Below are positions 8,341-35,958 of a DNA stretch of 64,000 bases, one piece after another. The translations under genes were made by a program, and so were the position numbers. Below the pieces are notes generated by a model, which did not search any database, had not been told where the DNA came from, and saw only the letters and a program-made list of their open reading frames with translations. Origin of the DNA: Arbacia lixula (taxonomy: Eukaryota; Echinodermata; Echinoidea; Arbacioida; Arbaciidae); NCBI GenBank assembly GCA_963669155.1, contig OZ022587.1, forward strand, positions 4,632,609-4,696,608. Reading direction: 5' to 3'. Within the stretch, counting starts at the first letter, position 1, and the number at the start of each line of letters is the position of its first letter.

Positions 8341-11300
8341 TCACACTCTGGACAATGCATCAGCTATGACATTGTTTTTGCCTGATACATGCATAATTTT
8401 GAGTGCATAGGGCTGGATCAGCAGACTCCACATGAATATTCTACTGTTCTTGGTTTTGAACCGATCCAGGAAGACAAGGGGATTGTGATCTGTGTACAGT
8501 ATTATCTCCCCTTTACTGTTTGTCAAATACACTTCAAACTGCTGAAGGGCAAGGATCATACTGAGTGCCTCCTTCTCAATGGTTGAGTACTTTTTCTGGT
8601 ACTTGTTCAGCTTCTTCGAGAAATAGCTCACAGGCTTTTCTATGCCATCATCATCATCTTGGAGCAAAACTGCCCCTACCCCAACATCACTGGCATCAAT
8701 AGCCACTTTGAAGGGCTTGGAGAAATTGGGTGCAGCCAAAACCGGCTCATTTGCCATGATAGATTTCAACTTCACAAAAGCATTTTGGCACTCGTCTGAC
8801 CAGATGAACTTGACTTTGCCTTTCAGCAAGTTTGTGAGTGGGCTCACTACAGTACTGAAATTCGGCACGAATTTTCTGTAGAACCCAGCCATACCCAGAA
8901 ATCTGAGCAACTCTTTCTTTGTTTGGGGGATGGGGAAGCTGAGTATAGCTTCAACCTTGGCTTCTCTTGGCAGTACTTGCCCTTGACCGACTATGTGACC
9001 GAGATAGGTGACCTTTGCCTTTGCAAATTCACTCTTTGCGAGATTGATCACAAGATTGGCTTTGTGGAGCCTGTCAAACAGTAGTCTGAGGTGTTGGATG
9101 TGATCACTCCATGTGTCCGAGAACACAAGAATGTCATCAATGTACACCACACAGTGGTCAAGTCCGGCTATCACCTGATTGGTCAACCTTTGAAAGGTCG
9201 CTGGCGAATTCTTCATCCCAAAAGGCATGACCTTACACTGAAACAGACCATCTGGGGTCGCAAAGGCAGATATTTCTTTTGCACGGTCGGTCATTGGCAC
9301 TTGCCAGTAGCCCTTAAGCAAGTCTATCTTACTGACGAAGGCAGAGTTACCAACCCTATCAATACAGTCCTCCAATCTGGGAATTGGGAATGAATCTGTC
9401 TTACTCACTGCATTTACCTTCCGGTAATCAATACAGAATCTCTGTGAACCATCTGGTTTTGGTACCATGACGATAGGGGAACTCCAACTACTCTGACTTG
9501 GCTCTATTATGTCATTTTCCAACATGAATTGAACCTCCTCCCTAACCTTGGCCAATTTATTGGGGTTTAACCGATATGGGTGCTGTTTGATTGGTCTAGC
9601 ATCTCCAACATCAACATCATGCACAGTCAGTGGGGTGCAACCTACTTTGTCTTTGCAAACGTCCCCAAATTCATGCAACAAATCAGTTACATCTTTTCTC
9701 TGATCTTCAGGGAGGTAACTCAACACTTCCTGTGTTTTCCCTAACACCTCCGTGTTAGACAGCCTGACACTTGGTGGCTCACTCATGTTTACATCAGATT
9801 CACACATGTCCACATCTGATTCCACCACATCAACCTCCTCATCATTTACCATGTGTATCACCCCAACTGGCTGGCTAGCCTCTCGCTCAAAGTATTCTTT
9901 GAGCATGTTCACATGACACACCCTTTGATCTTTTCTCCTGTCAGGAGTACCAATCACATAATTGACATCATTCAATTTCTTTTTGACACAGTACGGTCCA
10001 CTGAACTTGGCCTTTAATGGCTCACCCTGCAATGGTAGCAACACAAGTACTTTGTCACCAGGCTTGAAAGTACGCACTTTAGCATGTTTGTCTGCTTTCT
10101 TCTTCATGCTCTCTTGGGACGTTTTCAGATGTCCCCTAGCTACCTCACATGCCTTAAACAACCTTTCACGGAACTTTGACACATAGTCAAGGAGGTTTAC
10201 ATCATCATCCTGGGACATGAACCTCTCCTTTATGAGCTTAAGAGGTCCCCTAACCTCGTGACCGTACACCAACTCAAACGGACTAAATCCCGTTGACTCA
10301 TTCGGGGAGTCCCTAGTAGCAAACAACAAACATGGGATGCCCTTATCCCAGTCCTCAGGGTGCTCCTCACAATATGCCCTAATCATGGTCTTCAGGGTCT
10401 GATGGTAGCGTTCTAATGCACCTTGAGATTGGGGATGGTAAGCTGACGACTTCAGCTGTTTGATACCCAACTGATACATCACCTCTTGAAATATGTTTGA
10501 CATGAAATTGGATCCCTGGTCAGACTGAATTTCCTTGGGCAGACCATACCTAGTGAAAAACTGTACTAGGGCCTCTACTACAGTCTTGGTTGTAATATTT
10601 CTGAGTGGAATTGCCTCTGGGAAACGGGTAGACATATCCATGATTGTCAAGAGGAACCTATGACCTGACCTAGTTCTAGGCAAAGGGCCAACACAGTCAA
10701 CTAGAACCCGAGTGAACGGTTCATCAAACGCGGGTATCGGAATCAATGGTGCCGGCTTGATCGACGGCTGTGGTTTACCAACCACCTGACATGTGTGACA
10801 AGTTTTACAAAACTCAGCCACATCACGACTCAACTTCGGCCAATAGAAATGCCTCATGATTCGATCTTTTGTCTTTCTGACACCTAAATGGCCGCCAACA
10901 GGTAACTCGTGGGCAATTCTCAAAATCTCATTGCGATAACAGGGAGGGACAACAATTTGATGGACAACAGTCCAATCCTCATCAGCTGGCCTAAGGGGAG
11001 GTCTCCACTTCCTCATCAAAATGTCATCTTTGACATAATAGCACTCAGGGACATTAACAGCCTCAGCCTCAGAACACGCAGTCTGAGACAAGCCCTTCAA
11101 TTCCATGTCTGCCTGTTGTGCTTGAACCAAGGAAGACTTACTAAACAGCTCACCACTGCTAGCCTCGGAGCCTAAAACAGCACCCCCTTCATTCAAATCC
11201 TTGAAAAAGGTTTCAGCCAACCAAACCCCAGTATTCTCCTCCACGTCAACACAATCCGCATCATTGTGTGCATCCCTACGAGCCTGAGACCTAGTAACAA

Positions 11301-13164: not shown

Positions 13165-13299
13165 GATTGTACACAGTATACAACATATACAATCAAAATA
13201 TGTGAAAGCTTGTCTGATGTATTCTAGGATAGATCAATCAAAGTTATGACCAAAATTTCACTGAATTTTGAACAATGTTGGCTTATTAACAATGTTCAT

Positions 13300-14311: not shown

Positions 14312-16838
14312 AATCAACAAATAAGCCAATTAAAACTTACATTGCAATAACAGATGTTGAGATGTGAAAGTTTACGTTCTTTGAAGAAAAATAACCCCTC
14401 AGAATATTGGTCAATATTAAAGAAAGGTGAAAGAAAAGCTCCTATTAGCGATAAAGTTCCATTGAATGTATTTGTGGATCATTTTAAACTCCTTGGGAAT
14501 ACAGATAATGTTCCAGTCTTAGAGAGCTCAGAGAATGAATTACACATTCAGCCTTTTTCAAACATTCCTGATTATGACAATGACATTTTGAATATTCCAA
14601 TTACTGTGGAAGAAACCTAGATGATCATTAAGAAATTGATAAATGGTAAGGCCTCTGGTATTGATTTAATGAGGAATGAATTTCTGAAAAATTGTCCGCC
14701 CTCTGTCATACACATTATTGTTTCTTTGTTTAATGCTGTACTAGATAGTGGTGTTATCCCTACTGATTGGTGTGTTGGAATCATTATTCCAATATTTAAG
14801 AATAAGGGTGATGTTAAAAACCTGACAACTATAGAGGTATAACCTTGTTAAGCTGTTTGGGGAAGTTGTTCACCTCAATTCTTAGAATTTAGAATTTCTG
14901 GTTATCTACAAAGGAATTCCACAATTGGTGAGGAACAAGCTGGTTTCCGTTCAGGTTACTCAACAACTGATCATGTATTTACACTGAAATGTATAATTGA
15001 TATTTATCTACAGCAAAAAAAAAGCGTTTATATTGTGCATTTACTGACTACAAAAAAGCTTTTGATTTGATTAATAGATCCTCCTTATGGTTGAAAATGT
15101 TGAAATCAGGTGTAAATGGAAAAGTTTTCACTGTTATCAAAAACATATATGGCTATGCCAAATCTTGCGTAAGCGTAAAGGGAAAACTCTCAGACTACTT
15201 TTCATGCAATGTAGGGCCACGGCAAGGAGAAAATCTGTTTCCGCTTTTATTTGCGTTTTTTTAAACGATTTTGATAAACACATTGGCAGATTGTATAGCG
15301 GTCTCCATTCGTTATCTGCTTTGGTAGATTCACATGTAAGCGAAGATGAAATGTAGGCTTTTCTAGATTATTCTGCTATTATATGCCGATGACACCCTCA
15401 TTTTCGCTGGAAGTCCAGAGGAGCTTCAAATTGCATTGCATGGAGTTGAGGAGCACTGCTTGAAATGGCATCTTCATGTTAATACTAGTAAAACAAAAAT
15501 TGTAATTTCCTCCCGAGGCAAAGTGAGGAAGGTACAATCATTCATATTTAATGGCGTAGAGTTGGAGGTTGTTTATGATTTTGTTTATTTACGAGTAAAA
15601 TTCAACTATAATGGCAGCTTCAAGAAGGCTATCACTAAAGCAAGTGATTCAGGCTCAAAAGGCTTTATTTAGTTAGTTATGCTAGTTAAAGCAAAGAGAT
15701 TGCAGGTATCTATAGATACTCAATGTGAGTTATTTGATCGTATGGTGTTACCGATTTTGTTGTATGGAAGCGAGGTTTGGGGACACGAAAATAAAAGTCA
15801 AATTGAAGTATTTCACGGAAGGTTTTTAAGAACTATTCTACATGTAAATAAATGCACTCCCGACTGCATGGTTTATGGTGCAACTGGTCGATATGTAATT
15901 CTAAATCATGTCAAATGCAGAATGGTTGGATTTTGGTTAAAGATCATCAAAGGGGAACAAACCAAGCGCTCATTCTTACTTTACCGCCTTTCAAAATGCT
16001 TGAGCCAAAATGAAGACTTGAATTCAGTATCAAATTGGTTACGCTATGTTGAAGATATATTGAACAATGCAGGATTTACTAATGTGTGGTTATTTCAGAG
16101 TCATGGATTTAAATATGAATGGGTACTGAAGGCATTGAAATTGAGACTAGCTGATATCTTTAAACAGGATTGGAAAGCTACAATGTGGAGTAACCGCTTA
16201 TGTTCCAATTATAGAATGTTTATAGGCCTATTGGAACTGGAAAAGTATCTGCTGTTCCTTGATAGTAAAGATGCTACCACATTGTGTAAATTTAGATGAA
16301 GATCACACAGTTTACCTGTAAATAATAATAGGTTTGACTCAGACATGTCGCAGGATGATATATGCACACTCTGCTTGTCAGATACAGGGGATGAATTCCA
16401 TTATATATTTGTTTGTCCTTTCTTTTTGGAGGAGAGAAAGTTATATTTAGAGAAATCAGTATTGCGTAGTCGTAGACCTAGCTCTATAGAAATGGATAAA
16501 CTTTTTAAGATGCGAGACTCTTGCCAGTTGAGGAAACTTGTAAAATTTAACTTGTAAAATTGTAACATAATCGTGAATCATTTTAGTCACGAACCAAAAA
16601 GAAGTGATTTTGTTGATGTTACTGTTCAGCGTCACGAACATGTAGTTACACGTAGTGGTAGAATTGTAAGAAATCCTGTGCGCTTGGTGTTGTAAATACT
16701 GAAGAAGTTATGTACTCTATTTACTTTATGTATTTGTACGTATTCATGTTATTGTATATCATTGTAAATATGTTGAACTCTCATACCCCGAGAGGGGGTC
16801 GATAGTGTTAATAAAATCTTATCTTATCTTATCTTATC
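14312..16838 (+). pseudogene. Decayed non-LTR retrotransposon, RT and C-terminal region
   Basis: Several frames in turn read parts of one non-LTR polymerase: KLINGKASGIDLMRNEFLKN near 14635, GEEQAGFRSGYSTTDHVFTL near 14930, GVNGKVFTVIKNIYGYAKSC near 15110, YADDTLIF near 15385, then LLYGSEVWGHENKSQIEVFH near 15757 and a C-terminal C-x2-C...H zinc-like segment near 16355. A one-base loss near 14827, a stop at 14618, and further shifts near 15265, 15360 and 15670 separate them. The 3' end is AATAAAATCTTATCTTATC, a tandem ATCTT-type tail, ending at 16838. The upstream half (endonuclease) is missing, so the copy is 5'-truncated and dead. Clade not assigned. Confidence 0.85.
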
Positions 16839-19838: not shown

Positions 19839-20198
19839 CAACCATGTGGATACTACTGCTCATCGTAATGCACGCTGGGACAGCGCGGCTTAGCCCGGTC
19901 TCCGTGTCCAGAGGCGAGACAGCGCATATACCCTGCGTCTTTGGCGAAGGAACCGTGCACAATATTTACTGGAAGTTCAACAATTCCACTACCGAAATAA
20001 AAGTGGTCAATTTCATGGAAGGAGAACCAATGTATTTTGATGACTATTATGAAGTTCGGGCTGATGTTGACAATGGCGACAAGTCGACGTTGATACTGAG
20101 TGCGATCACAGTCAGAGATGGAGGTGACTACTGCTGTGATGTCGACAGGTTCCAAGATACCGCCGTGTATGATATATGCACTCAACTTCTCGTGTCGG
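19839..20198 (+). CDS. receptor exon 1: signal peptide and V-type Ig domain
   Basis: A splice acceptor (TTCACCTCAG) precedes CAACCATG, so a 5' noncoding exon probably lies upstream. The ATG at 19844 starts MWILLLIVMHAGTA, a signal peptide. The Ig domain has C31, the core tryptophan W43, the DxGxYxC motif at 92-98 closing on C98, and an N-glycosylation site at N47-S-T. The exon ends GTGTCGG before GTACGT, in phase 1, as is usual for Ig exons. Holding leader and V domain in one exon is less usual. Confidence 0.85.
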
Positions 20199-23100
20199 GT
20201 ACGTTCTCATTCTCCACCTTATCTCAATACAGTACATGAATCAAACCTTTATGCGCAATCGATGCATTTCGTACACTCAAATTATTCAAACATACACACC
20301 TTAAATTTTCCCTGGCACACGCCGCTACAATTTTTGAGAAATCCATGTTCGCCTCTGTCGTGCGTCTAAAATATGTACTTTTATTTAAATAACTGCCAAT
20401 TAAAAAGCTTATATCCATGGAAATTCAAATAAACCCAACTTTCGGATGACATCAACAGTTCCAAAATTAATTTCTGCTTGAGAATATGATTCTAAGTAGA
20501 AACGGGATGTATAAGGGCAAACGTTAATGTAGTTACCAATGTAGTTTTAGTCTTGTTTCCATTCTTTTTTTAATTCGGTGCTTTACTATGCCACTCTTGC
20601 AGGTCCAAGCCCAATCATACCACAGTGTGAACCAGCCGAGTGCCAGATTGAAGCGCCAGTAAACGCCTACATAAACATCTGGTGTGCACTGCGCAAAATC
20701 TCGGACGCTGATGACGTCACCCTGGAGTGGTACGATGAGAGCGGAGAGCTGCTCAACTCCACCAAAGATGAAATGCAAGATGACGAAGGAGATGGGTTCC
20801 ACACCCTCGTATCCACGGCAACCGTAAGCGTCTCGGAAGAGACACACTTCAGCTGCAACTCCTCACTTACGACACCTACCGGTACGGAGAGAGACGGGGT
20901 GGAGGTGTTGGTGGTGCCGAAAATCGCTCCATGGTCAATGAAGTCCCCAACAGGTGAACGTAACATATTGAGTATCCAGAGCTCTGCGACTGATTGCGAC
21001 TGATCGCAACCAGACATGTGATTCATATCTATCGTAAATCTGCACATCAGAAATAGATTATTAAAGTTGCGATCGATTCAGATCAATCGCATCCCTTTGT
21101 AACAAACTATCCGGCTGTTTACCTATTTGCGCGATTTAGACAAAGAGACAGAGTAAGCAAAATATGGATACAGTACATGAAGAACCAGTGTTACCAGATG
21201 TAACATCACAGCTAACTGCAATCGATCGCAGTCAATTTCACTCAATTATTACAATACATGTGAGGTGAGTGAATATGAGTGCAATCAATGTGTACACACG
21301 TATGGAACTGATATCGATTAATTGCAATATATTACAGTCAGTAATTGCAATCAATGTATATACACACGTATGGAACCGATTGCATATAATTGCAATATAT
21401 ATTACAGTCAGTAATGGCAATCAATGTGTACACACGCATGGAACTGATTTTCACTTATCGCAATATATTACAGTCAATAATTGCAATCAATGTGTACACA
21501 CAAATGGAACCGATTGCACTTAATTGCAATATATATTACAGTCAGTAATGGCTATCAATGTGTGCACACGTAATGATTGCAATTAATGTGTACACACATA
21601 TGTAACTGATTGTTGACTGCAATTAATGTGTACACGCGTATAGAGCTGATTCCATTTAATTGCGATACATCCCCATACTCACTTCCGGTCTAACGTATCA
21701 TTTGTATATAGAAAGTGGGTATGACTACCAACATGCGATGCGCCGTGCTTTGTGGGACGGTTTTTTCTTATACATGTTATAATTATATGCAGTATCAAGG
21801 AGAATTGTGAAGAGTCATTATTCCAGCAATGAATGAGCGAAGAGAGGCTATGTCGATGAGTTTTATTTCTTGACATTTTTCATCGTAAACTGCATGTTTA
21901 ATTTATTTTCGTTCATTTCACAGATGATCCCGGTAACAAAGCAGATGTCAACCTACCAGCGATCATAGTCCCTGTAGTGGTAGCAGTCGTCGCCGTCCTT
22001 GTAGCAGTCCTGCTTTACTTTCTATACAGAAAGAAAACAAGAGGTAGTGCAACTAAAAATCATTGCAGTGTCGGTGATATGACAACTTTACACTTTACAA
22101 AAACACTTTACAAAAACGAAACACACTGCGCTAAAATCGATATTCCCAAAACTGCTGTTCAAATGTAATGCCAAACACAAATGCATTTTTTCATATACTT
22201 AGAACAAAATGCTAGAAATCGGATTTAGATACGAACGCAGTATTACATGACTGAAATGTGACATTATTTTCTTTATCTAATGTGTGTATAAAATGAAAAA
22301 TAATGAACAAACTTGATGCCTGTCGGAACTCCTTCATTACCGCTGGCATAAAGATTTTGAAGTAGGTCAATGTACTATTTAAGACCTGGGCCCCGTTGCA
22401 TAAAACTTGCTATTGGTAGTAACTCTGCCATAAATGGTAACTAAGATGGTAAGATTGCTCAACAGAAAATCAATTTCAAGGTTTTCATAAAAGCTGCGAC
22501 TGGAAGCAAAGTTACCACCACTGGTAAGTTTTATGCAACAGGGCCCTGGTAGTGTAACGGTTAAGGGTGAGAGGGTCTGTCTGGTCATTCAAGACAGTAA
22601 TATAATGCGTTGCCATGTTTCCCGAGATTGTGTAAGCAAGGGATTTTTAGTGATCATTAATAAAAAATCAATTAAATGAAATTTGTATTTATTTCCTGTG
22701 TATATGGATATACTGATATATGGCTGGACAAACACATGATAAAGGCGGTATGTAAGGCGGATTAATGAACGATTCTGATAAGTGGATGAATAACGAGTTA
22801 TCGCATGATATCCTTCTGATTACAGATTATACGAAGGCGCCTACTTGGGAAGAGAAAGGAACAGGTGAAAAAATCCCTCTTCTTCTTCTTCTTCTTTCGT
22901 ATTGTACTCTTAATGCCTGTTTGATACCGTTTGTAGGCTGAACTTCCTTCCAGGATGAACCGAGTGTTTTCCCATGAAGGGGGGATGCCCCAAAACACTG
23001 GCTCTTTTGCTCTCCCACTAAAAAACAGAAAAGAAATCTTGCTGTTTTACAGCCTGTCTCACATTTCCAGTTCGATCTAGGTACTAGGCTAATTCTATTT

Positions 23101-25417
23101 TGGAGGGAAGTTATTTTATTTGTATCCACTTCAATTTTCCGTGGTTTTTACAACATCTTATTTTTCGGCCTGCAAGAGGACTATTTCACTTTGTCTTTAA
23201 AGCTGTTGGCAAATGCGTGACCCAGTATTATGACCAAGGATGTTTAAGTCAAATGGAGTACCATTAGCCGTTTAAGTAATGTAGATTCACTTGAATTAAG
23301 TCATTGTAATCAGTCATTGAAATCTAGACACAAAAAATGCTTTGCAAAGGTTTTCTCTTTGATTCCATGTTCGAATTCCCCGTCTCTTGATAATTCTTGA
23401 CTGGCCTTGACGTATTAACAAACCAGGATGCGCAGAAGAATTGTTATTATTTATTTATTATTTATTCATGTTTTCGTTAAAAATACAGGGTAGGCCGTTC
23501 AGTTGAAAAACTGTTTTACAACGGCGCCCTGTATGAGACATAAAAATATACAAGGCAGAGTAAATACAGTCAAAATAAATTAAAACTAAAAAAAAAAGAA
23601 AAATTACTCCAAAAATATACATACATTTACAGGCATTCATATCCCAATCAACCTCCCTGATAAGTACATTATAACTAAGAATTATAGTGGAAACCAGTTT
23701 GAATAAAGCACTTCAAAATAAGCACTTAGTGACAAAATTAAGAGTTCATCAGCAAAAGCTGAAATGTATAGAAATATCCATGACCTATTGTAAAATTTAG
23801 GTGGACATGCAGCAATCGCGTATGCATCATATTGTTGAAGGAGCTGCAATTATGAATAGAGGCTTCAAACCTTGTTCAAAGGGATGGATATCCTTTAGAT
23901 ATATAATGATTACTAGAATATACATTCTTTCCTTCAGAGCTCACAGCACGACCGGTCCCTAAGCCTACTGATGACGACAATGACAACATGGCAGACACAG
24001 GTGAAGAGAAATTATTTTGTTTTACACTTTGTTAGACATTTCCAATCCCACCTATCACATGCACGTACAACATGTCCTACAAACAAGATCAATCTAATCG
24101 AGTTGAATGTATTTCCGATAAAAAATGAACAATACGTGAATGTAAATCAAATTGGAATGTGAGTACAGGGATGGATGGCCCCATTCAACTCTGCTTACGT
24201 GGCACAGCTGTTCTTTCGGGGGTCCCGAAAGTCACCCCTTCCTGCTCTGGGGATATTTTTCCTAATCTGCGCTTTTCCCGCGAATATAGAATTTGAATTA
24301 AAAATGCTCATTAATCCGGAAATTAAACACACACAAAAATAAGTGTTCCCCTATGTAAAATAACATAACTTTTTACCGCAGAGGTTTTGGGCAACATATC
24401 TTGGCAGGATTATACCTTCACTTATTGACTAACTACCGTGTGAAAATCACATCAATCTACTCAGTCGTGCATGAGTGACCAAATGCTGCTCTACCAGGTT
24501 TCCATGTTTGTATGTTTTGCCAGGTACAGCAACGTATTACATGGAGAACGAACTAGTGCCGGTAGCATTAACAGTAGCTGAGCCCCAAGGCTTGTCGAAT
24601 ATGTTGTTTAACACTATATCCAGTAATGATTCTATTTAGTTATAGGTGTATTAAGTGAAGTTAAAGCACTGTTATGGGGGAGTTTTCATATAGTGTTTAT
24701 CAGCTCGGGAATTCCCCCTTCTCTCCTTCCTCCTTCCTCCTTCTCTCCTTCCCCTTCCTCCTTCCCCTTCTCTCCTTCCCCTTTCCCACTGGACCCTTCT
24801 TTTAGCGTAATGGCCTTGTATCTTTATTTCTAATCCGACAAGGCGCCGGAATCTTTTCATCCCGCAAGTCACACCACATAATTATTATAAAAGGGCGAGC
24901 ATCGCTCATACAATTTTGGGGATAGAAACCCCCCTCCCTTTTTTTATTTCCCTAACCCAGAGAGAAAAGAAAATGAAAACAGAGTGCATTTCGTGATTCA
25001 CTACGTTAATTGCATTAGGTGGGGATACAGGTGGAGCTAGTGGGACTGAAGGTGAATCAAGCACCGCGACAGCTGCAGGGTAAGCATGAAAAAAGGAGGA
25101 CATTGTGGACGGCGAGAATATGCCGACCACTTCCCCTAAAACAATAATAGTATTGGCCTAAACAATTTCCTGAAAATTGTTTCGTGCTTTGAAATTGATT
25201 TTATTCTAAATTTTCGAGAAAGGAACACTGGTACAAAAATTAAAAAAAAATTAATGTGCAATAATAATGTACATTAACTAACTAATATAGCAATAACAGA
25301 TAGGAAAGTGTCATAATCCGGTCCACAAGCAAGGAACAAGGTGCAAATAAAACAATATACAAATACATACATGGCAACAACAAGATGTTGTCAAGAGAAT
25401 TGAGACAAAATTGTACA

Positions 25418-25458
<41 letters not shown>

Positions 25459-28400
25459 GGGGGTATACAATAATATCCTCCCTAGACTATATATTTTAGT
25501 TTCATACTACGAGTGTGGGTAACAATTCATATTTAAGAATATTATATTCAGTCATGTGTAACAGTGGTGATGTAAAATTTTTAAATTATTGACATTTCAA
25601 CGTCGATTTTCTTTTTCTTTTAGGAACATGGTATATTGCACGGAACAATGATTTTCTATATCTTATCTGAACGGAGAAGGATTCAAACATGCTGATTGAA
25701 AGGCATATATCATGAATGATTTAAAAGTAACATTTTCAAAACAATTTCGATCTAATCTTAAAATGTTTTTAGATACAATATGAGGTTCAGGCACTCTGAG
25801 TACAAACGTGTATACACATCGTCTGCATTTATCTACTCAGACGGTATGTATGGATAATGCTTAACAACCTCTACATGTGAGAAGCTACGTAACGTCATTG
25901 TGTAGGCAAAGGAAATCATATGAATAACCATACTTTTTGTATGTATTTCTACCAATAAAGGAGGACATACGTACGAGGAAGTAAACGCATACACATAGCA
26001 TTCAATACATGTTCAATACCATCCAGTGTGTTCGCCAGTAGCCATAATAAACCTACAATTCTTAAATTGTGTTGATATGTAATATGTCGACAACTAGTCA
26101 TCGATTAAGCAACTTTTTATATTCCTTATATATGCAGCATGGACATGATGGACAAATCTATTCTCACGGATACATTGCTCCTTGCCCTTTCAAAGACGGT
26201 GGATATAACTCAAGTCCCTCCCGACCAATTCAGCGTGTATTTGGGGCTCAGCTCAACGGAAGGGAGTGCACAGGAGGTTACTGCAAACAGGGCTGGAAAC
26301 CCACAAGCTGCCATCTTCAAACTTCTCAAAGCGTACGTCGGCGAATGGGGTACAACACCGCCCATTGCCAGGCAACTCCTCGAGATCTTCAAAACAAATA
26401 AAATGATGATATCCGCGGAGCATCTTCAAAGAGGTATGCTTTTGTGGAAGTTTCAAATCAATTCAGTGTATTTTTTATCGAAGTATAAAACACATCAAAA
26501 TCAGTACATTAAAGGAAATCAAACATAACGGATAGCTCGAAAAATAATCACAAAGCTTCAGCTTAATGAGCACGATAAAAACAGACCTATGATAGACACA
26601 GATGGTATCAACGTTTGAGGAAAACCGGCCACCAACGAAGAAATTTGTGATTGGAAGGGAATACGCATCGACACCCCTCTGCTTCATCATATTTCTTATG
26701 TACACATTTTAGTTTGGTTCGAGTTGCAACTTTTTAAAGATTATTTTTCAAAAGTGTCCCAATTCTTTGTTTTAAGCCAAACCTTTATATTTAAAATGTG
26801 TACAGTTATAACCTTCTTATCATTCTTCAAAGTTCCCAGTAACTCTAAATATGTTTATCCACAAAGAAACGAGCCAAAGAGGCATGAAGTGGGGACAAAG
26901 TGAATTCATAAATGAAAAGGTAAAACATATTATTATATATAATATATATCAGTATATATATAAAGTGTCAAGAAAGCTAAATGTGTGGGTATGAGGAGCA
27001 CAAACCAATGAGGCATAATGATGCAATGATACGCATACAATGCTAAAATCAAGATCATTTTGTTTAATAAATATGCATTAATGTCATATCAACATGAAAT
27101 TTTACGATTTTTGACTTCACCCTAAAACTGTGCTCAATAGCATGACACGGCGACTACGTCTTATGTCCACAAAATATGTCATGATACATTTTGTTCACAA
27201 TTTCTGATGTCAATTATGTCAATAAACTGAAGGAAATATTGCAAAATTTAGTTTGAACATAACACTTTCCCCCTACAAGTTGGGTCAGTCAACCGTAAAA
27301 TGCGTGAAGATTATCAGAATATGTGTGAGGGGGTCAAATATGGATGATCAAACAACAACAGCACTTACACATACACCAATTAAACAATTCGCCAAAATAT
27401 TGCTTCACAGTCACCCAAATCTGACACTTGTGATCTTTGAAAAGTGAAAGATATTGCCTTTAATGTGTGCTCACTCATGCATTACTGCACGGATCAATGA
27501 CACTTTCACACAGAAGCTAGTCAATAAGTACAAAGACAATCCTGCCAAGTTTGTTTTGGTTCAAATTGTTTTTCTTTCTTTTTGTTTTGTTTGGTACAAA
27601 CATAGATTACAATGATAAAAATAAATATTGCAATACAACTTGCAAAACAAACCACGTTCTGGGAAAAACTTTCGGATTACCTTATCTCGCTTTGACATTT
27701 CAGAAATGATTAAATTGAGAATTGACTTTGTCGAGATGCCACTGTCTCTGCCATCACCCCCGACCACTGCATCTGGTAAGTAAGTCAGCCCTCTTACAAA
27801 GATCACAGTAAGAAAAATATCAACTGACAATAAAACTGGTAGACATACCACCTACCATTAAGCGTTCAGAAGAACAACAAAAGTTTATTGCTATTGTTAT
27901 CCTTTTAGACAGGTCTGCCTTTTGTACAAGTTTCTTTTGTTTTGTGCAGTTGTTTTAAATATTCAAATATTGTATTAAATAAGGTTTTACTAAGCTACGT
28001 GGAATGAAATAATATGAAAATTAATGGATTGTTCTGCTTAGAAAACACATTAATTCAGTGCAGACATAGAATACAGTGACAACTCTGATCATGGTATGGT
28101 CCGTACTAAGAGAAGCATCTTGTTTCGTATTCACATAAATGTATACGTATCAAGGCTTCGCTGCGTGACTAGCCTTCTTCAAGTTTTACATTGATACGAA
28201 AAAATAACTAAAATGCTCTCACAAGCCCGCGGTTTCTTTTTTTTTGTCTTCCCCAAAAAAACTTCAAAAATTGTATTATTGTGCAGTTTTTTCGCATCTT
28301 TTTTTTTTTAAAGTCAACATGAATTAAAATTACTGTTAAGAGTTTAGAATTTGTATCAATATGTTTATTATTGAATACGTTAATGATGCTCAGTTTGTTT

Positions 28401-31400
28401 GTTTTGATTTCGATCGCCTCGTGAATTTATATTTATATACACATATTTTTATATATAATATATATCAGTATACAAAAGTGTCAAGAAAGCTCAATGTGTG
28501 GGTATTGAGGAGCACAAACCAATATGGCATGATGATGAAATGATACACATACAAAGCATAAACAAAACGAAAACATAAAAGAAACATATTAATGTAGGTT
28601 TGACAAAGATCCAACAGAGTTAACAATTTTTTGTCAAATCTTCACTAATATGTTGCTTTCATTTTCTGCTACGATTTAAACCAATTGTACTTCAGGGTGG
28701 ACTTCCCCTCTAAGGGATATTGAGGATACCGGAATCGTTTGTACGCGCGACAAGGAGTGGGAGGGGAGGGAGGGGATCAGATGATAGTTAGTGAGGGAGT
28801 TATGATAGTCATCAGAATTAAATATGTGCAAAATAAACACTAGCGAGACTCGCAAAAATATGTAGGCCGTTGTAGGGGACATGATAAAAAAACATCACAA
28901 GGTTGGTCTTAGACTGGCTTACTAACATATTAACATTTTAAGATTGCCACTGACAACCGGTAAGCTTGTCCGAGGTTTGTCCGACATAGCAACAACCCAT
29001 GCGTGACTTAGTATTATGACCAAGAATGTTTAAGTTACATGGAGTATACCATCAGCCGTTAAATTAATGCAGATTTGTTGCACTCTTCTTCTCCTAGATA
29101 CAAAAAATGCTTTACAAAATTTTATCTTTGATTCCATGTTTGAATCCGCCTATTCTCTTGATAATATTTAGGCCTACCTGGATTTGACGTATAAACAAAC
29201 TAGGATGCGAAGAAGAACTAAGAGAAATATCCTCACCCCATATACTTGCGCAGTTGTGATATGTAATACCTACAATGCATCTGTAAAGATTCACTCGAGG
29301 CATTGTAACGATAAGGTAAAAAAAAGTCTCTACACGTGATTTCACGTTGCAGTACAGAAGTCTCGATTTCACACTGTTCCGCATCACACTCCATAACCAA
29401 TTTGCCGGACACGTAACTTTACGATATCTTTCTTTAAGAAAAATAACATGATACATGTGCCAAGCAACGGCAAAACTAGTCGTTCCATGTAGAAAAATAA
29501 AATTACGTGTTCGCTTATCCTCATGAACTACAAAACCAGCACTAAGTGACAAAATTAAGAGTTCATCACCAAAAGCTGAAAGTATTGTGAAATTCAGATT
29601 GACATGGCACAATCGCGTATGCGTCATACTGTTAAAAGCAGCTGCAAGTCATGAATATTGAGTGGCGGATTCAGACTTGGTTAAAGGAATGGATATCCTT
29701 TGAATATATAATGATCACGAGAATATACATTCTCTCTTTCAGAGCCCACCGAAGCACCGGACCCTAGGCCTACTGATGTTGACAATGATGACAGGGCAGA
29801 AGCAGGTAAACAGAGATGATGATAATTATTTTTTTTTTTACTCAGATTAAATGAGAGTTGAGTGGGGCTATCCATCCTTGTACTCACATTCCATTTTGAT
29901 TGATATTCATGTATTGTTCATATTTTTTTTTATCTGAAATACATTGAACTTGATTAGATTGATCTTGTTTTTAGGACATGTTGTACGTGCATGTGATAGT
30001 TGGGATTGGAGAAAACGAAGTGTAAAACGAAATAATCTCTAGATTTTAGTGAAAAGGCTTTCTGGAGTGATTTAAATTAACAAAGAAACTTTAGGCATAC
30101 ACCCAGTAGTAAGGATAGCGTGCTCCATCCTGTAAATGAACGAAAAACAAGTCAGAAGAAATCTTGGAACTAGACGGGATTTCAACCTGCAATCCACTGC
30201 TTACCGGGCAGCGACTTAACCACGCAAGCTATTTCTAGTTCGCAGATCAAGTCACGGCAACATGGAAACAAATACTGAAGAGTCCCATTTAATCTGACTC
30301 ATTAATATTCATGAGTAGTCCGCCGTTAGGACCATTTGGCTAGATGTATGCATATATGCATGTATAGGAGTATCCATGACCTATTGTAAATTATAGGTGG
30401 ATATGACGCAATAGCGTATGCGTCATTTTGTTCAAAGCAGCTGTAAGTCATGAATATTGAGTGGCGTGTTAAAACCTTGTTCAAGGGGATGGATATCCTT
30501 TGAATATATAATGATTACTAGAATAAACATTCTCTCTTTCAGAGCCCACCGAAGCACCGGACCCTAGGCCTACTGATGTTGACAATGATGACAGGGCAGA
30601 AGCAGGTAAACAGAGATGATGATAATTATTTTTTTTTTTACTCAGATTAAATGAGAGTTGAGTGGGGCTATCCATCCTTGTACTCACATTCCATTTTGAT
30701 TGATATTCATGTATTGTTCATATTTTTTTTTTATCTGAAATACATTGAACTTGATTAGATTGATCTTGTTTTTAGGACATGTTGTACGTGCATGTGATAG
30801 TTGGGATTGGAGAAAACGAAGTGTAAAACGAAATAATCTCTAGATTTTAGTGAAAAGGCTTTCTGGAGTGATTTAAATTAACAAAGAAACTTTAGGCATA
30901 CACCCAGTAGTAAGGATAGCGTGCTCCATCCTGTAAATGAACGAAAAACAAGTCAGAAGAAATCTTGGAACTAGACGGGATTTCAACCTGCAATCCACTG
31001 CTTACCGGGCAGCGACTTAACCACGCAAGCTATTTCTAGTTCGCAGATCAAGTCACGGCAACATGGAAACAAATACTGAAGAGTCCCATTTAATCTGACT
31101 CATTAATATTCATGAGTAGTGAATGATTACTAGAATAAACATTCTCTCTTTCAGAGCCCACCGAAGCACCAGACCCTAGGCCTAGAGATGATGACAATGA
31201 CAATGATGACAGGGCAGAAGCAGGTGAACAGAGATTTTTTGGTTTTACACTTTGTTAGACATTTCAAATCCCACCTATCACATGCACGTACAACATGTCC
31301 TACAAACAAAATCAATCTAATCCAGTTGAATGTATTTCAGATAAAAAAGTGAACAATACATGAATGTAAATCAAAATGGAATGTGAGTGCAAGGATGGAT

Positions 31401-34400
31401 AGCCTCACTCAACTCTGCTAACGTGGCACAGCTTTTCTTCAGGGGGTACCCGGAAACTTATCCCTTCCTGGTCTGTAGATATTTCGCTCATCTGTGCTTT
31501 TCAGCCGAATGTATAATTGAGATGACAAAATGCTCATTACTCCAGGAATAAGTGCTCCGTTATTTGCCCGACCAAATGCTGCTCTTGACTACGAGGTTTC
31601 GATGTTTGCACGTTTGCCTGGTACAGCAACGAGGGTTTCATATAGAATGAAATAGTGCCGGTAGCATTAACAGTAGCTGATCCCTAAAGCTTGTCGAATG
31701 TGTTGTTTAACACACTCTATCTAGTTATAAATGTAATGAAGTTACTGTTATGGGAGAGTTTTTAAATACTGATAATCAACAGGGGAATACCCCCCTCCGC
31801 CCTTCCCCATACACCACACATCATGAACTACACCCTCCTCTTTGCCTACGTTATATTTATTTCCAATCCGACGGGGCAAATATGTTCATCCCGCAAATCA
31901 CACCACATATTGCGAAAGTGCGAGCATCGCCCACAGATTTTTGGCATAGAACACCCCCTTCATTCCCCCTACCCCCCCCCCCCCTCAGAGAAAATAAAAT
32001 AAAAACATAAATAATTTTGTGTCTCGTTACGTTAATTGCATTAGGTGGGGATACAGGTGGAGCTAGTGGGACTGAAGGTGATCCAAGCACCGCGAAAGCT
32101 GCAGGGTAAGCATGGAAAGAGGAGGACATTTTTGGTGGCGATGTAAACATAAATTCCCTCGTTAGGTTCTGTTGTGATTGTGTGTGGCCATGCACTATAT
32201 ATCTGGTAATCAAACATCGTACATATATCAAATGTGTATTTCAGGATAAGCATGGAAAGCGGGAACAATGTTGACGGCGATCTGAAAATGTTGAGTATCT
32301 GGTGATCACACATTTAAAGGGATAGTTTACCCTTAAAAAATATTTGTTTCAATAAAAGCAGACACATAAAAATAAGAAAGTGAAAATTTGATGAAAATCC
32401 GTCAAAGGATAAGAAAGTTATGGGAGAAGCTCTTCCATATGTTATTTTCCATTTTTCAAAAATATGTACTGTGAAATATGTAAAATATGTCTCAAAATGA
32501 TAAGCATTCTTTTATCTGTGAATTTGATGCATCATCACCAATACGTTTTTACACACATAACTGTAAGGGCAAAAAAATCAATTGTTAAAACCAGATAAAG
32601 AAAATTCATATAATTATACTGCACACAATACCTGGGAGAACACGTCACAAAATTGCGAATTAAAAAGATCACAACATTTTTAATATTAAATATTAATATT
32701 TAATATTTTTAATAACATGTTTCTTTCATGTTTCTGTTTTTATTGAATCCAACTTATCTTCAGGGTGAATTATCCCCTTAAGATGAACTAATCACACAGT
32801 TTAGATCGTCTCCATATACATGCACAGTCATATTGATTTATAACAAAATAATCAAATGAAATGTCGAATTACTATCACAAAATGCTGCAGGAAATATCAA
32901 AAACGTAGTAAACGAAACCTAAGAGAGAGAGAAAGGGATGATTTAGTTATATGAATTAGAAGAACAGAGTTTATTATCAAAGCTCATCATACCGGTAATA
33001 ATAGAAGAACATATAAATCTAGTTATTTCCCGATTCCCTGTCACATGCCTCAATCGAAACTGTCTCTCCCAATAATCAATTGATTACTAGATAATGCAAA
33101 AAATACCATCAATATTACGAGAATAAACACATTACTTCCTCTAGAACAATAATAATATCTCGACCTACACATCAAGTTCCTAAAGTTTGTTTAGCTCTTC
33201 GAATCTTATATTATTTCCAGTTTACGAGAAAGGTACAATGATGCAAATAAAATAATCTATAAATACTTACATAGAAAGAACATATGATTTTCCAGAGAAT
33301 TGAGACAAAATTTGTACATGTCTGTGTGTGTGTGTTTGAGGGGGGGGGGGGGGGGGCTTGGGGTTACTTTCATACGACGAGTTTGGGTAACAATTTATAT
33401 TTAAGATATTGTATACATTTATGTCATTGGTGGTGAAGAATTTTAGAATTATTGACATTTGAACGTCGATTTTCTTTCATTTTTTAGAAACATAGTACAT
33501 TGCAAGGAACAATGGTTTTCGATGTCTTATACGGACGCAGAAGAATTCAAACATGCTGACTGAAAGGCGAATATCGTGAATGATGTAAAAACAACATTCT
33601 CAAAACAGTTTAGATCTTATCTTGAAATGTTCTTAGTTAAAATATGAGATTCAGGCACTCTGATTACATGCATGTATACACATCGTCTGCATTCACCTAC
33701 CCAGACGGCATGTATGGATAATGCAACAACCCCAAAGGAGACGATGTGAATAACCATTATCACTTCTTGTATATATTTCTCCTCATAAAGGAGGACCTAC
33801 GTACGAGGTAGTGTGTTATTTACAGTTATATGCACCATTTTGACTGATTCGTCAGTTCGTGTGAACACAGAGCAATCATTTATTTGCAACGTGTTGTATC
33901 CACATACAGTATGTAACAATGTTAAGCGATGCCATGCATCGCCAAGAAACGAGGATAATGATGAGTACTTATAATGCACTATATTCACCTTATGTACAAG
34001 AAACAAGAAATAAACGAAGAAAAGACAGGAATAAGATGATATGGCCGTAGATGTCATGATTTTGTTTCTTATTTTTGAATTAAACAGGTCTGGAGGAAGG
34101 ACTACGATATAAACATTTGCTTTATTAGAGGGTGTTAGTTTGGAAAAATGGTGGGGCCTTAGTTTTCAAGTTTTTGTTTTTGATATTTTTTTTTCTACAT
34201 TTGAAATAACCTGGTCTAGAGGAAAGACTAGGCTCGATTCTCATGTTATTCCGCAGGAATAAGATAATGGGGTCTTAGTTTGAAGATTTTTTCATTTGTT
34301 AAATGACTAGGTCTGGAGTAAAGACAACGCTCTAAACCTGTGCTTCATTACGGGGTCGTAGGAGGATTGTTGGGTCTTATATTTGAAATTTTGTTTAGTT

Positions 34401-35437
34401 GTTTATTGGCTTTTTGAAATTACCGTGTCTGGAGGAGAGACTAGTCTCGACTTTCAAATTTTTCCACAGAAATATGATGATGGGGTCTCAGGTTTAAAGA
34501 CTTAAAAATAAATTAAACGGGTCTGGATAAAAGAATACGCTCTTAACCCATGCTATATCACATGGACTTAGTTTTGAAGATGGTGGGGTCTTAGTTTTCA
34601 AGTTTTTGTTTTTTTATTTGTTTTGCTTTATATCTTTTGAGATAACCGGGGCTGGAGGAAAGAATACGTTCAATATTCATTTTATTCCACAGAAATATGA
34701 TGATAGGGTCTTAGATTTAAAGGTTTGAATAATATATAAAATTAAGCTGGATAAAAGACTACGCTCTTAACCCATGCTTTATCACCTTGTATTAGTTTGG
34801 AAGATGGTGGGCTCTTAGTTTTCAAGTTTTTGTTTTTCATTTCTTTTCGAAATAACCGGGTCTGGAGGAAAGGCTAGGCCCGATTCTCATGTAACTCCAC
34901 AGGAACAAGATGATGGGGCCTTTGTTTTGAAGATTCGTTTTTTTTTTAATTGAAATAATCTGGACTGGAATAAAGACTGCGCGTTATACCCATGATTTAG
35001 CAGGTTTTCAGTTTTGAAAGAATTTTGACAAAATATCTCCTAGAATTTAGTTCATTTGTGGGTAAAATCATTATTACATTTGTTGGCTGTTCAGAATTAT
35101 TACATTTGTGGATAAAGTGCGTTATTACATTTGTGGGTTAAATTATTACATTTGTGGGAGTTATTACATTTGTGGGTAAAGTGTTATTACATTTGTGGGC
35201 GATTAATACATTTGTGGGTGCAACGGGGGGGGGGGGGGGGCATTCTAGTTCATTCTACTACGCCCTGAAACCTTTAGCACATCATTATTAAAGTTGAGAG
35301 CTACATACATGTATAAATGCAGGTGTGTGATTATTTCGAACTATGATCTGATGTACATGCAAAAACTTCGTTGTATGTTAATTGAACAATCGGCCCTGTT
35401 GTACATTATGATATAAACTCTCTCTTCTCTCTCTCTC

Positions 35438-35484
<47 letters not shown>

Positions 35485-35958
35485 TTCCTCCTTTATGATT
35501 GCCACTGTTATCTCTCTCTCTCTCCCTCTCTAGCTCTATTTCTTCAACCATGTCCACATTCCCTGTCACTCTCTGTCTTTCTGTTCCTTATTTTCTTCTC
35601 CAACCCCCCCTTCCTCTCCTTCCCTTTCCTATACCTCCTAGGCTCCTACCATCATTTTGATAATTCTCTCTCTATGTTTCCCTACAGAAAAAAATTGACT
35701 ACCAATACAGGCATGGTAACTGAAATCGAGTTACACAAACTAGCTAAAATATGCCCCATCGGCAAATATCACGAGTTCTGCTTGAAACTAAATGACACGG
35801 GTCATAACGAAGCAGACAAGATACTGACTAAACATCTGAAGGACTATGAAGCTGCATTAAGGGAAGTGTTAGTTGCGTGGAGGAATGCCACAGGAGGGCC
35901 TCGTGAAGACCTACAGAAAGCGATGAGGGACTCGGAAATTGGCGGACTCATCCCATAA
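19844..35958 (+). CDS. Ig-Ig-TM receptor with linker repeats and two death-fold domains (12 exons)
   Basis: Predicted exons: 19844-20198, 20603-20953, 21924-22043, 23938-24000, 25019-25079, 26138-26433, 27704-27775, 29743-29805, 30543-30605, 31155-31223, 32045-32105, 35688-35958. Each is bounded by AG and GT, phases agree at every junction (1-1, except 1-2 for exons 5 and 11 and 2-1 for exon 6), and the sum is 1845 bases, exactly 615 codons. The 614-residue product has a signal peptide, V-type Ig (C31, W43, C98), a second Ig (119-235), a transmembrane helix at 246-270 followed by RKKTRG, linkers, death-fold domain 1 (317-415), linkers, death-fold domain 2 (525-614). It should sit in the plasma membrane with the death domains inside, able to recruit death-fold adaptors. 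No exact known family was recognised. Alternative splicing is likely because most linker exons are phase 1-1 and skippable. Confidence 0.75.
20603..20953 (+). CDS. receptor exon 2: second Ig-like domain
   Basis: Exactly 117 codons in phase 1-1, from acceptor CTCTTGCAG to donor GTGAAC. Key residues are INIWCALRK with the first cysteine, LEWYDE with the core tryptophan, and HFSCNSS with the second cysteine. Extra cysteines at the start (QCEPAEC) may form another bond. Two N-x-S/T sites are present. It looks like a C2- or I-type domain. Confidence 0.82.
21281..21660. repeat. minisatellite, unit about 68 bp, in intron 2
   Basis: The phrase GCAATCAATGTGTACACACG recurs at 21281, 21347, 21417, 21483 and (one mismatch) 21551, with degenerate copies to about 21660. 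Spacings are 66, 70, 66 and 68. It lies between the second Ig exon and the transmembrane exon. Confidence 0.8.
21924..22043 (+). CDS. receptor exon 3: transmembrane helix
   Basis: Forty codons in phase 1-1 between TTCATTTCACAG and GTAGTG. A short acidic stalk (DDPGNKADVN) leads into about 25 hydrophobic residues rich in valine, isoleucine and alanine, then RKKTRG as stop-transfer. This fixes a type I membrane topology with Ig domains outside. Confidence 0.85.
22388..22546. mobile_element. foldback MITE (GTTGCATAAAACTT ends)
   Basis: The left end GGGCCCCGTTGCATAAAACTT is the inverted complement of the right end AAGTTTTATGCAACAGGGCCC with one base difference. The interior also folds (GGTAAC/GTTACC). 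Nonautonomous palindromic elements with such ends are common in deuterostomes. It lies in the intron after the transmembrane exon. Confidence 0.7.
23446..23660 (-). mobile_element. LINE 3' end, minus strand
   Basis: The minus strand reads a 3' UTR fragment with TACAGGGCGCC...GGCCTACCCTGTATTTTTAAC followed by (ATAA)-type repeats. This is a familiar 3' end of CR1/L2-like elements. No coding part remains. Confidence 0.6.
23938..24000 (+). CDS. receptor exon 4: acidic/proline linker
   Basis: A 63-base phase 1-1 exon between TTTCCTTCAG and GTGAAG encodes ELTARPVPKPTDDDNDNMAD plus T. It is the diverged relative of exons 8, 9 and 10. It has no fold of its own and probably acts as a spacer with possible proline-motif docking. 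Confidence 0.65.
24715..24790. repeat. CTTCC-rich low-complexity tract
   Basis: Repeats of CTTCTCCTTCC-type units fill the intron between exons 4 and 5. No function can be read from it. Confidence 0.5.
25019..25079 (+). CDS. receptor exon 5: glycine-rich linker, phase switch
   Basis: This 61-base exon encodes GGDTGGASGTEGESSTATAA and ends in phase 2, exactly what the following death-fold exon needs. Exon 11 is its near copy with three base changes, all altering residues (E to D, S to P, T to K). The acceptor has a weak pyrimidine tract (TTAATTGCATTAG), the same in both copies. Confidence 0.65.
26138..26433 (+). CDS. receptor exon 6: death-fold domain 1
   Basis: A 296-base exon from TATATGCAG to GTATGC enters in phase 2 and leaves in phase 1. 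It encodes MDMMDKSILTDTLLLALSKT, then a six-helix pattern with VYLGLSSTEGSAQ, the NPQAAIFKLLKAYVGEWG helix, the TTPPIARQLLEIFKTN helix and an amphipathic end. The LLxxYxxxW...TPP..A..LL...L pattern is that of the death domain superfamily. Death domains bind each other in adaptor complexes in the cytoplasm. DD is favoured over CARD or DED by the tryptophan-bearing helix; no profile search was run. Confidence 0.72.
26925..27060. repeat. direct repeat, copy 1 (pair with 28445-28565)
   Basis: A TATATA-rich stretch followed by AAGTGTCAAGAAAGCT and GAGGAGCACAAACCAAT recurs at 28445-28565. The two copies lie in the introns on either side of exon 7. Confidence 0.65.
27704..27775 (+). CDS. receptor exon 7: linker
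   Basis: A 72-base phase 1-1 exon between TTTGACATTTCAG and GTAAGT encodes EMIKLRIDFVEMPLSLPSPP then TTAS. It has good splice signals and keeps the frame between death-fold domain 1 and the linker cluster. It has no relative among the other exons. Its use in the mRNA is the least certain of the set. Confidence 0.55.
29743..29805 (+). CDS. receptor exon 8: acidic/proline linker
   Basis: A 63-base phase 1-1 exon between CTCTCTTTCAG and GTAAAC encodes EPTEAPDPRPTDVDNDDRAE plus A. It is base-for-base the same as exon 9, which lies 800 bases downstream. Confidence 0.68.
30165..30241 (-). repeat. tRNA-derived element, copy 1
   Basis: On the minus strand a 75-base unit has a perfect 7-bp acceptor stem (GAACTAG/CTAGTTC), an A-box-like TGGTTAAGTCG, an anticodon arm CTGC-CCGGTAA-GCAG (would-be anticodon GGT, threonine) and a B-box-like GGTTGAAATCC. 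The D and T stems are imperfect and position 33 is C instead of T. A tRNA-derived SINE or pseudogene is more likely than an active tRNA gene. Confidence 0.5.
30543..30605 (+). CDS. receptor exon 9: identical copy of exon 8
   Basis: Same 63 bases and same splice sites as exon 8. The copy is part of a tandem duplication of about 630 bases (29695-30319 with 30490-31120), whose two halves differ by only a few bases, so the event was recent. Confidence 0.68.
30968..31042 (-). repeat. tRNA-derived element, copy 2
   Basis: Identical copy of the unit at 30167-30241, carried along in the 630-base tandem duplication. Confidence 0.5.
31155..31223 (+). CDS. receptor exon 10: acidic/proline linker, longer variant
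   Basis: A 69-base phase 1-1 exon encodes EPTEAPDPRPRDDDNDNDDR then AEA. It has two more codons than exons 8 and 9 through a DN repeat. Its 3' intron matches the intron after exon 4, so it is the true positional partner of exon 4 in the module duplication. Confidence 0.66.
32045..32105 (+). CDS. receptor exon 11: glycine-rich linker, phase switch
   Basis: A 61-base exon nearly identical to exon 5, entering in phase 1 and leaving in phase 2. That phase is the one required by the second death-fold exon at 35688. Retaining the same odd length in both modules supports the splicing model. Confidence 0.66.
32098..32300. repeat. short tandem copy of the exon 11 donor region
   Basis: GCAGGGTAAGCATGGAAAG at 32101 recurs as CAGGATAAGCATGGAAAG at 32243, with similar sequence after each. 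The second copy has lost the donor GT (now AT), so it cannot serve as a splice site. Confidence 0.55.
32314..32781. mobile_element. MITE with AGGGATAGTTTACCC ends
   Basis: The left end TTAAAGGGATAGTTTACCCT is matched inverted by AGGGTGAATTATCCCCTTAA at the right. The interior is AT-rich and noncoding. The same family occurs at 56494-57060. It sits in module B only, so it postdates the duplication. Confidence 0.75.
34085..35030. repeat. dimeric satellite, about 220-bp period, in intron 11
   Basis: The phrase GGTCTGGAGGAAAGACTA recurs in nine half-units that alternate between two types: one followed by GGCTCGATTCTCATG (34211, 34425, 34648, 34858), the other by CGCTCTTAACCCATGC (34087, 34310, 34518, 34745, 34961). 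Like-to-like spacing is 208 to 227 bases. It lies directly upstream of the death-fold 2 exon. Confidence 0.8.
35041..35240. repeat. ATTACATTTGTGGG short tandem array and poly-G
   Basis: About eight copies of TTACATTTGTGGG occur with variable 5-20-base spacers, followed by a poly-G run at 35226-35240. It continues the repeat-rich block of intron 11. Confidence 0.7.
35413..35535. repeat. (CT)n microsatellite
   Basis: Two CT tracts with a poly-C run lie about 150 bases before the acceptor of exon 12. Confidence 0.8.
35688..35958 (+). CDS. receptor exon 12: death-fold domain 2 and stop
   Basis: After acceptor GTTTCCCTACAG one base completes the phase-2 codon left by exon 11, and the frame runs 90 codons to TAA. 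It reads KKLTTNTGMVTEIELHKLAK, then YHEFCLKLNDTGHNEAD, the YEAALREVLVAWRNATGG helix with the conserved tryptophan, and EDLQKAMRDSEIGGLIP at the end. Helix spacing and the W-x-x-x-T/S-G turn fit a death domain, and the stop lies where such domains usually end. It is only distantly similar to domain 1. Confidence 0.75.

Follow-up and report, generated by a model that had tools for sequence, protein, structure and literature searches.

The locus analysed here raises the question of whether the sea urchin Arbacia lixula possesses receptors in which an immunoglobulin (Ig) ectodomain is linked through one transmembrane (TM) helix directly to cytoplasmic death domains. It lies in a 64,000-nt stretch of contig OZ022587.1 (positions 4,632,609 to 4,696,608 of the forward strand; G000:C12:4632609-4696608 in our searches), which we call the window and for which a preliminary description had proposed a gene with two Ig domains, a TM segment and two death-fold domains. 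We find that this gene (W) probably encodes a single-pass Ig-Ig-TM-death receptor and is one of four related places in the 607-Mb genome searched, one of which is a neighbouring paralogue (U). The first and second death-fold exons are referred to as DF1 and DF2. The family is best read as a variant form of death-domain receptor whose tails come from a pool of ZU5-death genes.

The genome-wide check for repetition of an Ig-Ig-death gene, which had been suggested at the outset, bore the proposal out, as two Ig exons followed by a death-type exon were found at four places. A search with exon 1 returned 19 genome matches including itself, five of them with E below 0.001, and the identities were 96% at contig C138, 85% at U, 40% at C12:5.254 Mb and 33% at C10:8.09 Mb. 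Exon 2 gave four matches including itself (the window, C138, U and C12:5.254 Mb) and none at C10:8.09 Mb. At all four places with both Ig exons (4/4) a DF1- or DF2-type exon lies 3' on the same strand: both DF1 and DF2 in the window, DF1 at C138 (72%), DF2 at U (50%) and DF2 at C12:5.248 Mb (45%). In C138 the V-set (96%), second Ig (84%) and DF1 exons follow one another in order on the minus strand; no DF2 match was found on this 45-kb contig, which ends 6.4 kb past its DF1. The third place (C12:5,254,316-5,247,631, minus strand) is more diverged, with V-set at 40%, second Ig at 28% and DF2 at 45% ordered on one strand, and has no DF1 match. By inspection, the AG before the conserved part of the DF2 exons at C12:5.248 Mb and C12:4.890 Mb leaves a phase-2 start.

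Several observations weaken this picture. C138 may represent the other haplotype of a locus already placed, in which case the four places would be three loci, and the TM exon was identified at W and U, i.e. at two of the four places. Furthermore, a V-set exon lies within 30 kb 5' of only 2 of the 18 DF1 matches and 3 of the 51 DF2 matches, counts that come from an incomplete V-set list: 150 of 441 candidates were scored, so that rows without a V-set may still have one. The proximity count used 121 of these 150 rows together with 10 of the 19 exon-1 rows, and the 29 V-set rows left out are on contigs without DF matches (27) or on C3 at 26.4 Mb (2). W is nevertheless a real gene as modelled from genomic sequence, a view that we base on conservation at the paralogous places and not on the length of open frames. 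The latter, taken by themselves, were rejected as proof of a gene, as the plus strand between 19.0 and 37.5 kb, an AT-rich region, has 8 open stretches of at least 90 codons against a mean of 5.8 in 200 simulations.

U lies about 39 kb upstream of W on the same strand, and its exons 1-6 parallel those of W: order, phases and AG/GT borders are all kept. The deletions in U relative to W are all in frame (3 nt in exon 2, 3 nt in exon 3 and 9 nt in exon 4), and exon 3 is otherwise identical at 114 of 117 aligned bases. The phase-2 end of exon 6 in U meets the phase-2 start of a DF2-type last exon, resulting in a seven-exon open frame of 418 aa and a stop, with a predicted signal peptide, V-set, Ig, TM segment, linker and a single death domain. 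Between W and U, dN and dS (NG86) are 0.069 and 0.181 for exon 1, 0.084 and 0.122 for exon 2, and 0.415 and 2.77 for DF2, where dS is near saturation.

We rebuilt W base by base and obtained 13 exons on the plus strand with 1884 nt, coding for 627 aa and a stop. An acceptor AG precedes every exon after exon 1, a donor GT follows every exon but the last, and all junctions are in phase. The preliminary description had listed 12 AG/GT exons without phase conflict and a coding sum of 1845; its borders, phases and in-frame sum ending in a stop hold, whereas the count and the sum had to be corrected for an overlooked 39-nt exon (22826-22864, phase 1/1) between the TM exon and the first 63-nt exon (1845 = 1884 - 39). 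The exon numbers used here are those of the 13-exon rebuild, in which the earlier exons 6 and 12 become exons 7 (DF1) and 13 (DF2).

Exon 1 (19844..20198; residues 1-118) carries the start codon, a signal peptide recognised by inspection and the V-set Ig domain, and ends at a GT donor. Exon 2 (20603..20953; residues 119-235) encodes the second, C2/C1-like Ig domain. Exon 3 (21924..22043; residues 236-275) was read by inspection of LPAIIVPVVVAVVAVLVAVLLYFLYRKK as a putative stalk near the membrane, TM helix and basic stop-transfer sequence. Three linker exons with counterparts in U follow: the 39-nt cytoplasmic exon 4 (22826..22864, AG/GT), the acidic and proline-rich exon 5 (23938..24000, 63 nt, phase 1/1) and the Gly/Ser/Thr exon 6 (25019..25079, 61 nt, phase 1 to 2). 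Exon 7 (26138..26433), encoding DF1 as the putative first death domain, starts in phase 2 and is backed by genome relatives and a profile match. Exon 8 (27704..27775, 72 nt, phase 1/1) is the least supported exon of the model, its basis being AG/GT borders and phase, and no relatives were found in the window or in 260 kb of flanking DNA, the range searched. Exon 9 (29743..29805, phase 1/1; repeat families D2, D3 and D5) is a copy of linker exon 5, exon 10 (30543..30605) has the same sequence as exon 9 and lies within a recent 800-nt tandem duplication, and exon 11 (31155..31223, 69 nt, phase 1/1) is the third copy. Exon 12 (32045..32105, 61 nt, phase 1 to 2) is a copy of exon 6, and exon 13 (35688..35958) encodes DF2, the second predicted death domain, with a phase-2 start and the stop codon. 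The match that had been pointed out between the phase-2 ends of both 61-nt exons (25019-25079 and 32045-32105) and the phase-2 starts of 26138-26433 and 35688-35958 is exact. Rfam and tRNA scans and NCBIfam gave nothing useful for the W locus, and no homologue of W was found in the protein database.

Regarding domain content, a Pfam scan of the 627-aa model that took matches at E up to 10 identified the first Ig as V-set above the cut-off (E 2.7e-9), as is also the case in U, and the second as C2-set_2 with a weaker score below the cut-off (E 0.0014). The same scan found no thrombospondin type 1 repeat, no ZU5, no TIR domain and no TNFR cysteine-rich repeat in the model, the ectodomain scoring as Ig, and a genome search for ZU5, which gave 49 matches at E up to 0.001, placed none of them closer than 40 kb to any of the four. 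Thus, the proposed Ig-Ig-TM-death architecture lacking thrombospondin and ZU5 domains is supported in W and in the surroundings of its relatives.

Relatives accepted by Pfam and a ZU5-to-death gene order establish DF2 as a death domain at the level of sequence, and the case for DF1 is good but weaker. For both exons we considered every genome match with E up to 10, counting the window exons themselves. DF2 has 51 matches, 6 of which carry stops, and two of them on C20 (E 5.5e-10 and 1.3e-8) are sites of PF00531 (Death) matches above cut-off. DF1 has 18 matches, 4 of which carry stops; its full-length copies show 44-86% identity, and 26 invariant positions are common to ten aligned rows. Furthermore, 18/51 DF2 rows and 3/18 DF1 rows (the three being at 2 loci, since two of them are one locus) have a same-strand ZU5 exon in the 20 kb 5' of them, and no row has one on the 3' side (0/51 and 0/18). 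Three of the ZU5-linked DF2 rows (C25:278995, C25:96932 and C21:13033469) carry stops, each beside another listed row; the gene-order counts included 29 of 87 PF00531 rows, all 49 ZU5 matches and all DF2 and DF1 rows. In UNC5, PIDD and ankyrins, too, the death domain comes after ZU5, and the same order at the DF rows lends independent support to the death-domain assignment.

Profile comparison points in the same direction. We aligned 10 of the 18 DF1 rows, 5 sequences for DF2, and 9 of the 87 PF00531 rows for Death, the last including one identical and one near-identical pair. With hhalign, the DF1 family scored 27.0 against Death (0/60 column shuffles reached this, maximum 13.5; reversed at most 11.5), the DF2 family 24.9 (0/60, maximum 18.9; reversed at most 11.1), and the two families 30.5 against each other (0/60, maximum 23.6; reversed at most 15.1), while 14 reversed or rotated Death decoys scored at most 12.0. 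DF1 and DF2 themselves show no meaningful similarity by blastp (E 4.4), yet the family profiles do relate them.

The alternative that DF1 and DF2 belong to some other class of helical domain, and not to the death folds, has some observations in its favour, all of which count against our assignment. The proposed Pfam check of the two exons had a mixed outcome, with DF2 matching Death below cut-off (E 0.033), DF1 having no death match and only the family profiles matching Death for both; Pfam gives nothing for the DF2 exon of U, and of 10 DF1-family members 2 touch Death (best E 0.013), beside unrelated families at chance level. Initial profile tests, made with one to three sequences, gave weak results (10.0 bits for U's DF2, 3.4 for DF2 and 0.2 for DF1; hhalign probability 3.8%), the DF2-versus-Death score falls to 18.8 (probability 6%) without the Pfam-positive member L038, whose kinship to DF2 rests on the direct match at E 5.5e-10, and PDB sequence searches returned no death-domain chain. 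Set against DF2 relatives at Pfam-accepted Death sites, the ZU5-to-DF order and profile scores that beat the decoys, we regard this alternative as highly improbable. Only slightly better placed, and still very unlikely in our view, is a decaying chimera, in which duplication or mobile elements brought Ig and death exons side by side with no protein being made. Retroelements and fresh duplications (a 300-nt stretch at 100%) nearby, an inverted stop-bearing DF2 copy 3 kb before the window and open frames not beyond chance would fit such an origin; it sits poorly with splice sites and frame kept in both W and U, with indels that are in frame, with the DF2 exons (dN 0.42 versus dS 2.8) and with the same exon order at the diverged third place.

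More weight has to be given to two alternatives that accept a death-domain receptor. W could be a divergent UNC5, i.e. a netrin-receptor paralogue that lost thrombospondin repeats and ZU5 and serves guidance or dependence and not immunity. The Ig-Ig-TM-death order is that of UNC5, and DF1 and DF2 relatives do occur 3' of ZU5 exons; we consider this unlikely all the same in view of the missing ZU5 around the four places, the absence of TSP_1 and ZU5 from the model, the V-set nature of the first Ig in W and U (to our knowledge, the Ig domains of UNC5 are not V-set) and the lack of overlap, within an incomplete V-set list, between DF rows with a V-set 5' and those with a ZU5 5'. As the model is without ZU5 and thrombospondin repeats, we do not class W as a member of UNC5, but it would go too far to call it unrelated to UNC5. 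A closer contender concerns the tail. The preliminary description had both death domains in one protein, and this is not shown: exons 7-12 (624 nt) begin and end in phase 2 and are thus skippable in frame, U has one death domain, and the third gene has no DF1 match. W might instead produce two single-death-domain receptors with alternative tails, one ending at DF1 (at the intron stop at 26528 or through an unseen terminal exon) and the other joining exon 6 to DF2, the 627-residue tandem form being rare or absent. U is exactly the exon 6-to-DF2 form, a separate copy of the linker exons precedes DF2, and the frame past exon 7 is open only to 26528. What speaks for the tandem form is that the stretch between DF1 and DF2 is bridged by copied linker exons whose splice sites are intact and in phase, as that form needs, and that exons 6 and 12 are 95% identical against 80% in their flanks, yet selection on them is unproven as all three differences alter the protein. 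Alternative tails are, in our judgement, a real prospect short of an even chance, and a tandem death-domain protein from W is possible; the reading of W as a single-pass Ig-Ig-TM-death receptor gene is the one we retain below.

The copied block lies at 29527..33812 on the plus strand, carries exons 9-12 and consists of copies of parts of 23710-25982, in five blastn pieces with 80-87% identity outside the exons. Exons 6 and 12 are identical at 58 of 61 positions and their flanks at 400 of 502. The end of W-U homology at window position 25,958 is close to the end of the internal linker duplication at 25,982, just before the DF1 exon, and two breakpoints so near each other are what repeated tail exchange would leave. 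An origin of DF1 and DF2 from the linker-copying duplication itself was rejected, since the copied block ends before DF1 and the two exons do not resemble each other by blastp. Head and tail also differ in their identity to W, being 84-96% in the head and 72% in the DF1 tail for C138, and 83-85% in the head and 50% in the DF2 tail for U. Since a phase-1 end such as that of exon 8 does not fit the phase-2 start of DF2, an exon-6-type linker is the only in-frame way into DF2, hence our name ‘socket’ for this linker exon. Somewhat more tentatively still, we propose that an Ig-Ig-TM head with a conserved phase-2 socket linker exon may receive interchangeable death-domain exons from the large ZU5-death pool, with tails being swapped or stacked and the recognition head changing little. 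The position of DF2 (18/51) and DF1 (3/18) relatives 3' of ZU5 exons suggests such a source, and the tail of W seems to be drawn from a ZU5-death pool that includes UNC5. The simplest history would be either a gain of death exons from this pool by an Ig-Ig-TM gene or the loss of ZU5 from a ZU5-death receptor.

As proposed, the receptor would expose a V-set/C2-type Ig ectodomain, cross the membrane once and continue through an acidic linker into its cytoplasmic death domains. Ligand binding or crowding of receptors at the Ig ectodomain could cluster the tails, and the death domains might then nucleate a homotypic, helical assembly that draws in an adaptor or effector similar to FADD, MyD88/IRAK or DD-NLR proteins. 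By analogy with TNF-receptor-family death receptors and UNC5, the predicted output would be either cell death or signalling of the NF-kB type. A tail with two death domains could be of higher valency or engage two partners. The exon-6-type linker, entered in phase 1 and left in phase 2, may act as a socket for different death-domain exons, and whether the tail is single or tandem would then depend on the choice of exons or on the gene copy. If this is true, an antibody-type recognition head would be tied directly to invertebrate death-domain assembly without TIR, TNFR or ZU5, and the receptor tail would belong to the expanded set of ZU5-death genes in this genome. Moreover, three copies with a common head and different tails make it testable whether the output of recognition can be rewired by one exon change.

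The layout has parallels in known receptors, and the domain combination looks like that of a pared-down relative of UNC5-type receptors. UNC5, with two thrombospondin repeats and a ZU5-UPA unit, shares with W a single membrane pass, two Ig domains outside and a C-terminal death domain, and relatives of its death domains occur behind ZU5 exons; W differs in having neither thrombospondin repeats nor ZU5-UPA, in its V-set first Ig and possibly in carrying a second death domain. TNF-receptor-family death receptors and p75NTR combine a short ectodomain, one TM helix and a cytoplasmic death domain, which is the same layout as in W, but the ectodomain of W is Ig and not made of TNFR cysteine-rich repeats. 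In the IL-1 receptor family (Ig-TM-TIR), an Ig ectodomain feeds a cytoplasmic homotypic assembly domain, and W has a death domain where these receptors have TIR.

Related combinations have also been reported. An amphioxus TNFR-caspase receptor is a predicted TM shortcut from ectodomain to cell-death machinery that arose via domain shuffling (PMC2575513), with TNFR outside, a caspase inside and neither Ig nor death domain. MALT1, with a death domain, Ig domains and a paracaspase, is an immune protein that contains both kinds of domain (PMC10748089), but it is cytoplasmic, has its death domain N-terminal and is without a TM helix. In the sea cucumber, AjNLRC4 is an echinoderm fusion of Ig and NACHT reported at the cell membrane (PMC8699970); Ig is joined to an innate-signalling module as in W, this being NACHT there and a death domain in W. 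Oyster HEPN-Ig-DED-TRADD-N proteins (PMC8195603) and a sponge gene with Ig and CARD domains (PMC6208332) combine Ig with other death-fold domains, DED or CARD in place of a death domain, and no TM receptor form was found in the excerpts of either source. Among the entries listed from open-licence PubMed Central literature (titles and abstract starts), none described an Ig-TM-death receptor without ZU5; the novelty of the architecture in print is not established.

A further DF2 copy at C12:4890211-4890540 (L039, minus strand), 222 kb downstream, is 88% identical and has a similar acceptor and a different C-terminal end; W DF2 and this copy have dN 0.059 and dS 0.027. Positive selection on recent DF1 copies was considered and rejected, as the ratios in three pairs (0.66-1.43) were all non-significant (Fisher p 0.35-0.52). 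About 3 kb before window base 1 there is an inverted DF2 copy (L011:6918-7091, minus strand) with about 90% identity and one in-frame stop, adjoining inverted repeats that match window 35.3-36.5 kb. Within the linker region, window 29676-31023 holds a tandem pair of 800-nt copies whose linker exons are identical and which match at 100% over a 300-nt stretch, this being either a very recent duplication or an assembly artefact.

At a larger scale, C12, the chromosome that also bears the receptor family, has a dense array of V-set exons at 6.0-7.0 Mb, often two per place. On C17, a large tandem array of PF00531 matches, including L035, occupies 18.0-21.0 Mb, with several ZU5-DF2 pairs in the same stretch; one array copy adjoins a NACHT-like frame by inspection, and the array looks like DD-NLR genes. 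The window itself contains retroelement sequences upstream of W, all identified by inspection. On the minus strand at 8341-13233, a 1630-codon frame carries gag-, protease- and integrase-like parts followed by reverse transcriptase and RNase H; the integrase of this Ty3/gypsy-type element thus precedes the reverse transcriptase, an order that we take to be Gmr1-type. LINE-type frames with endonuclease and reverse transcriptase are present at 404-3646 on the minus strand, and a reverse transcriptase-like fragment at 15673-16299 on the plus strand.

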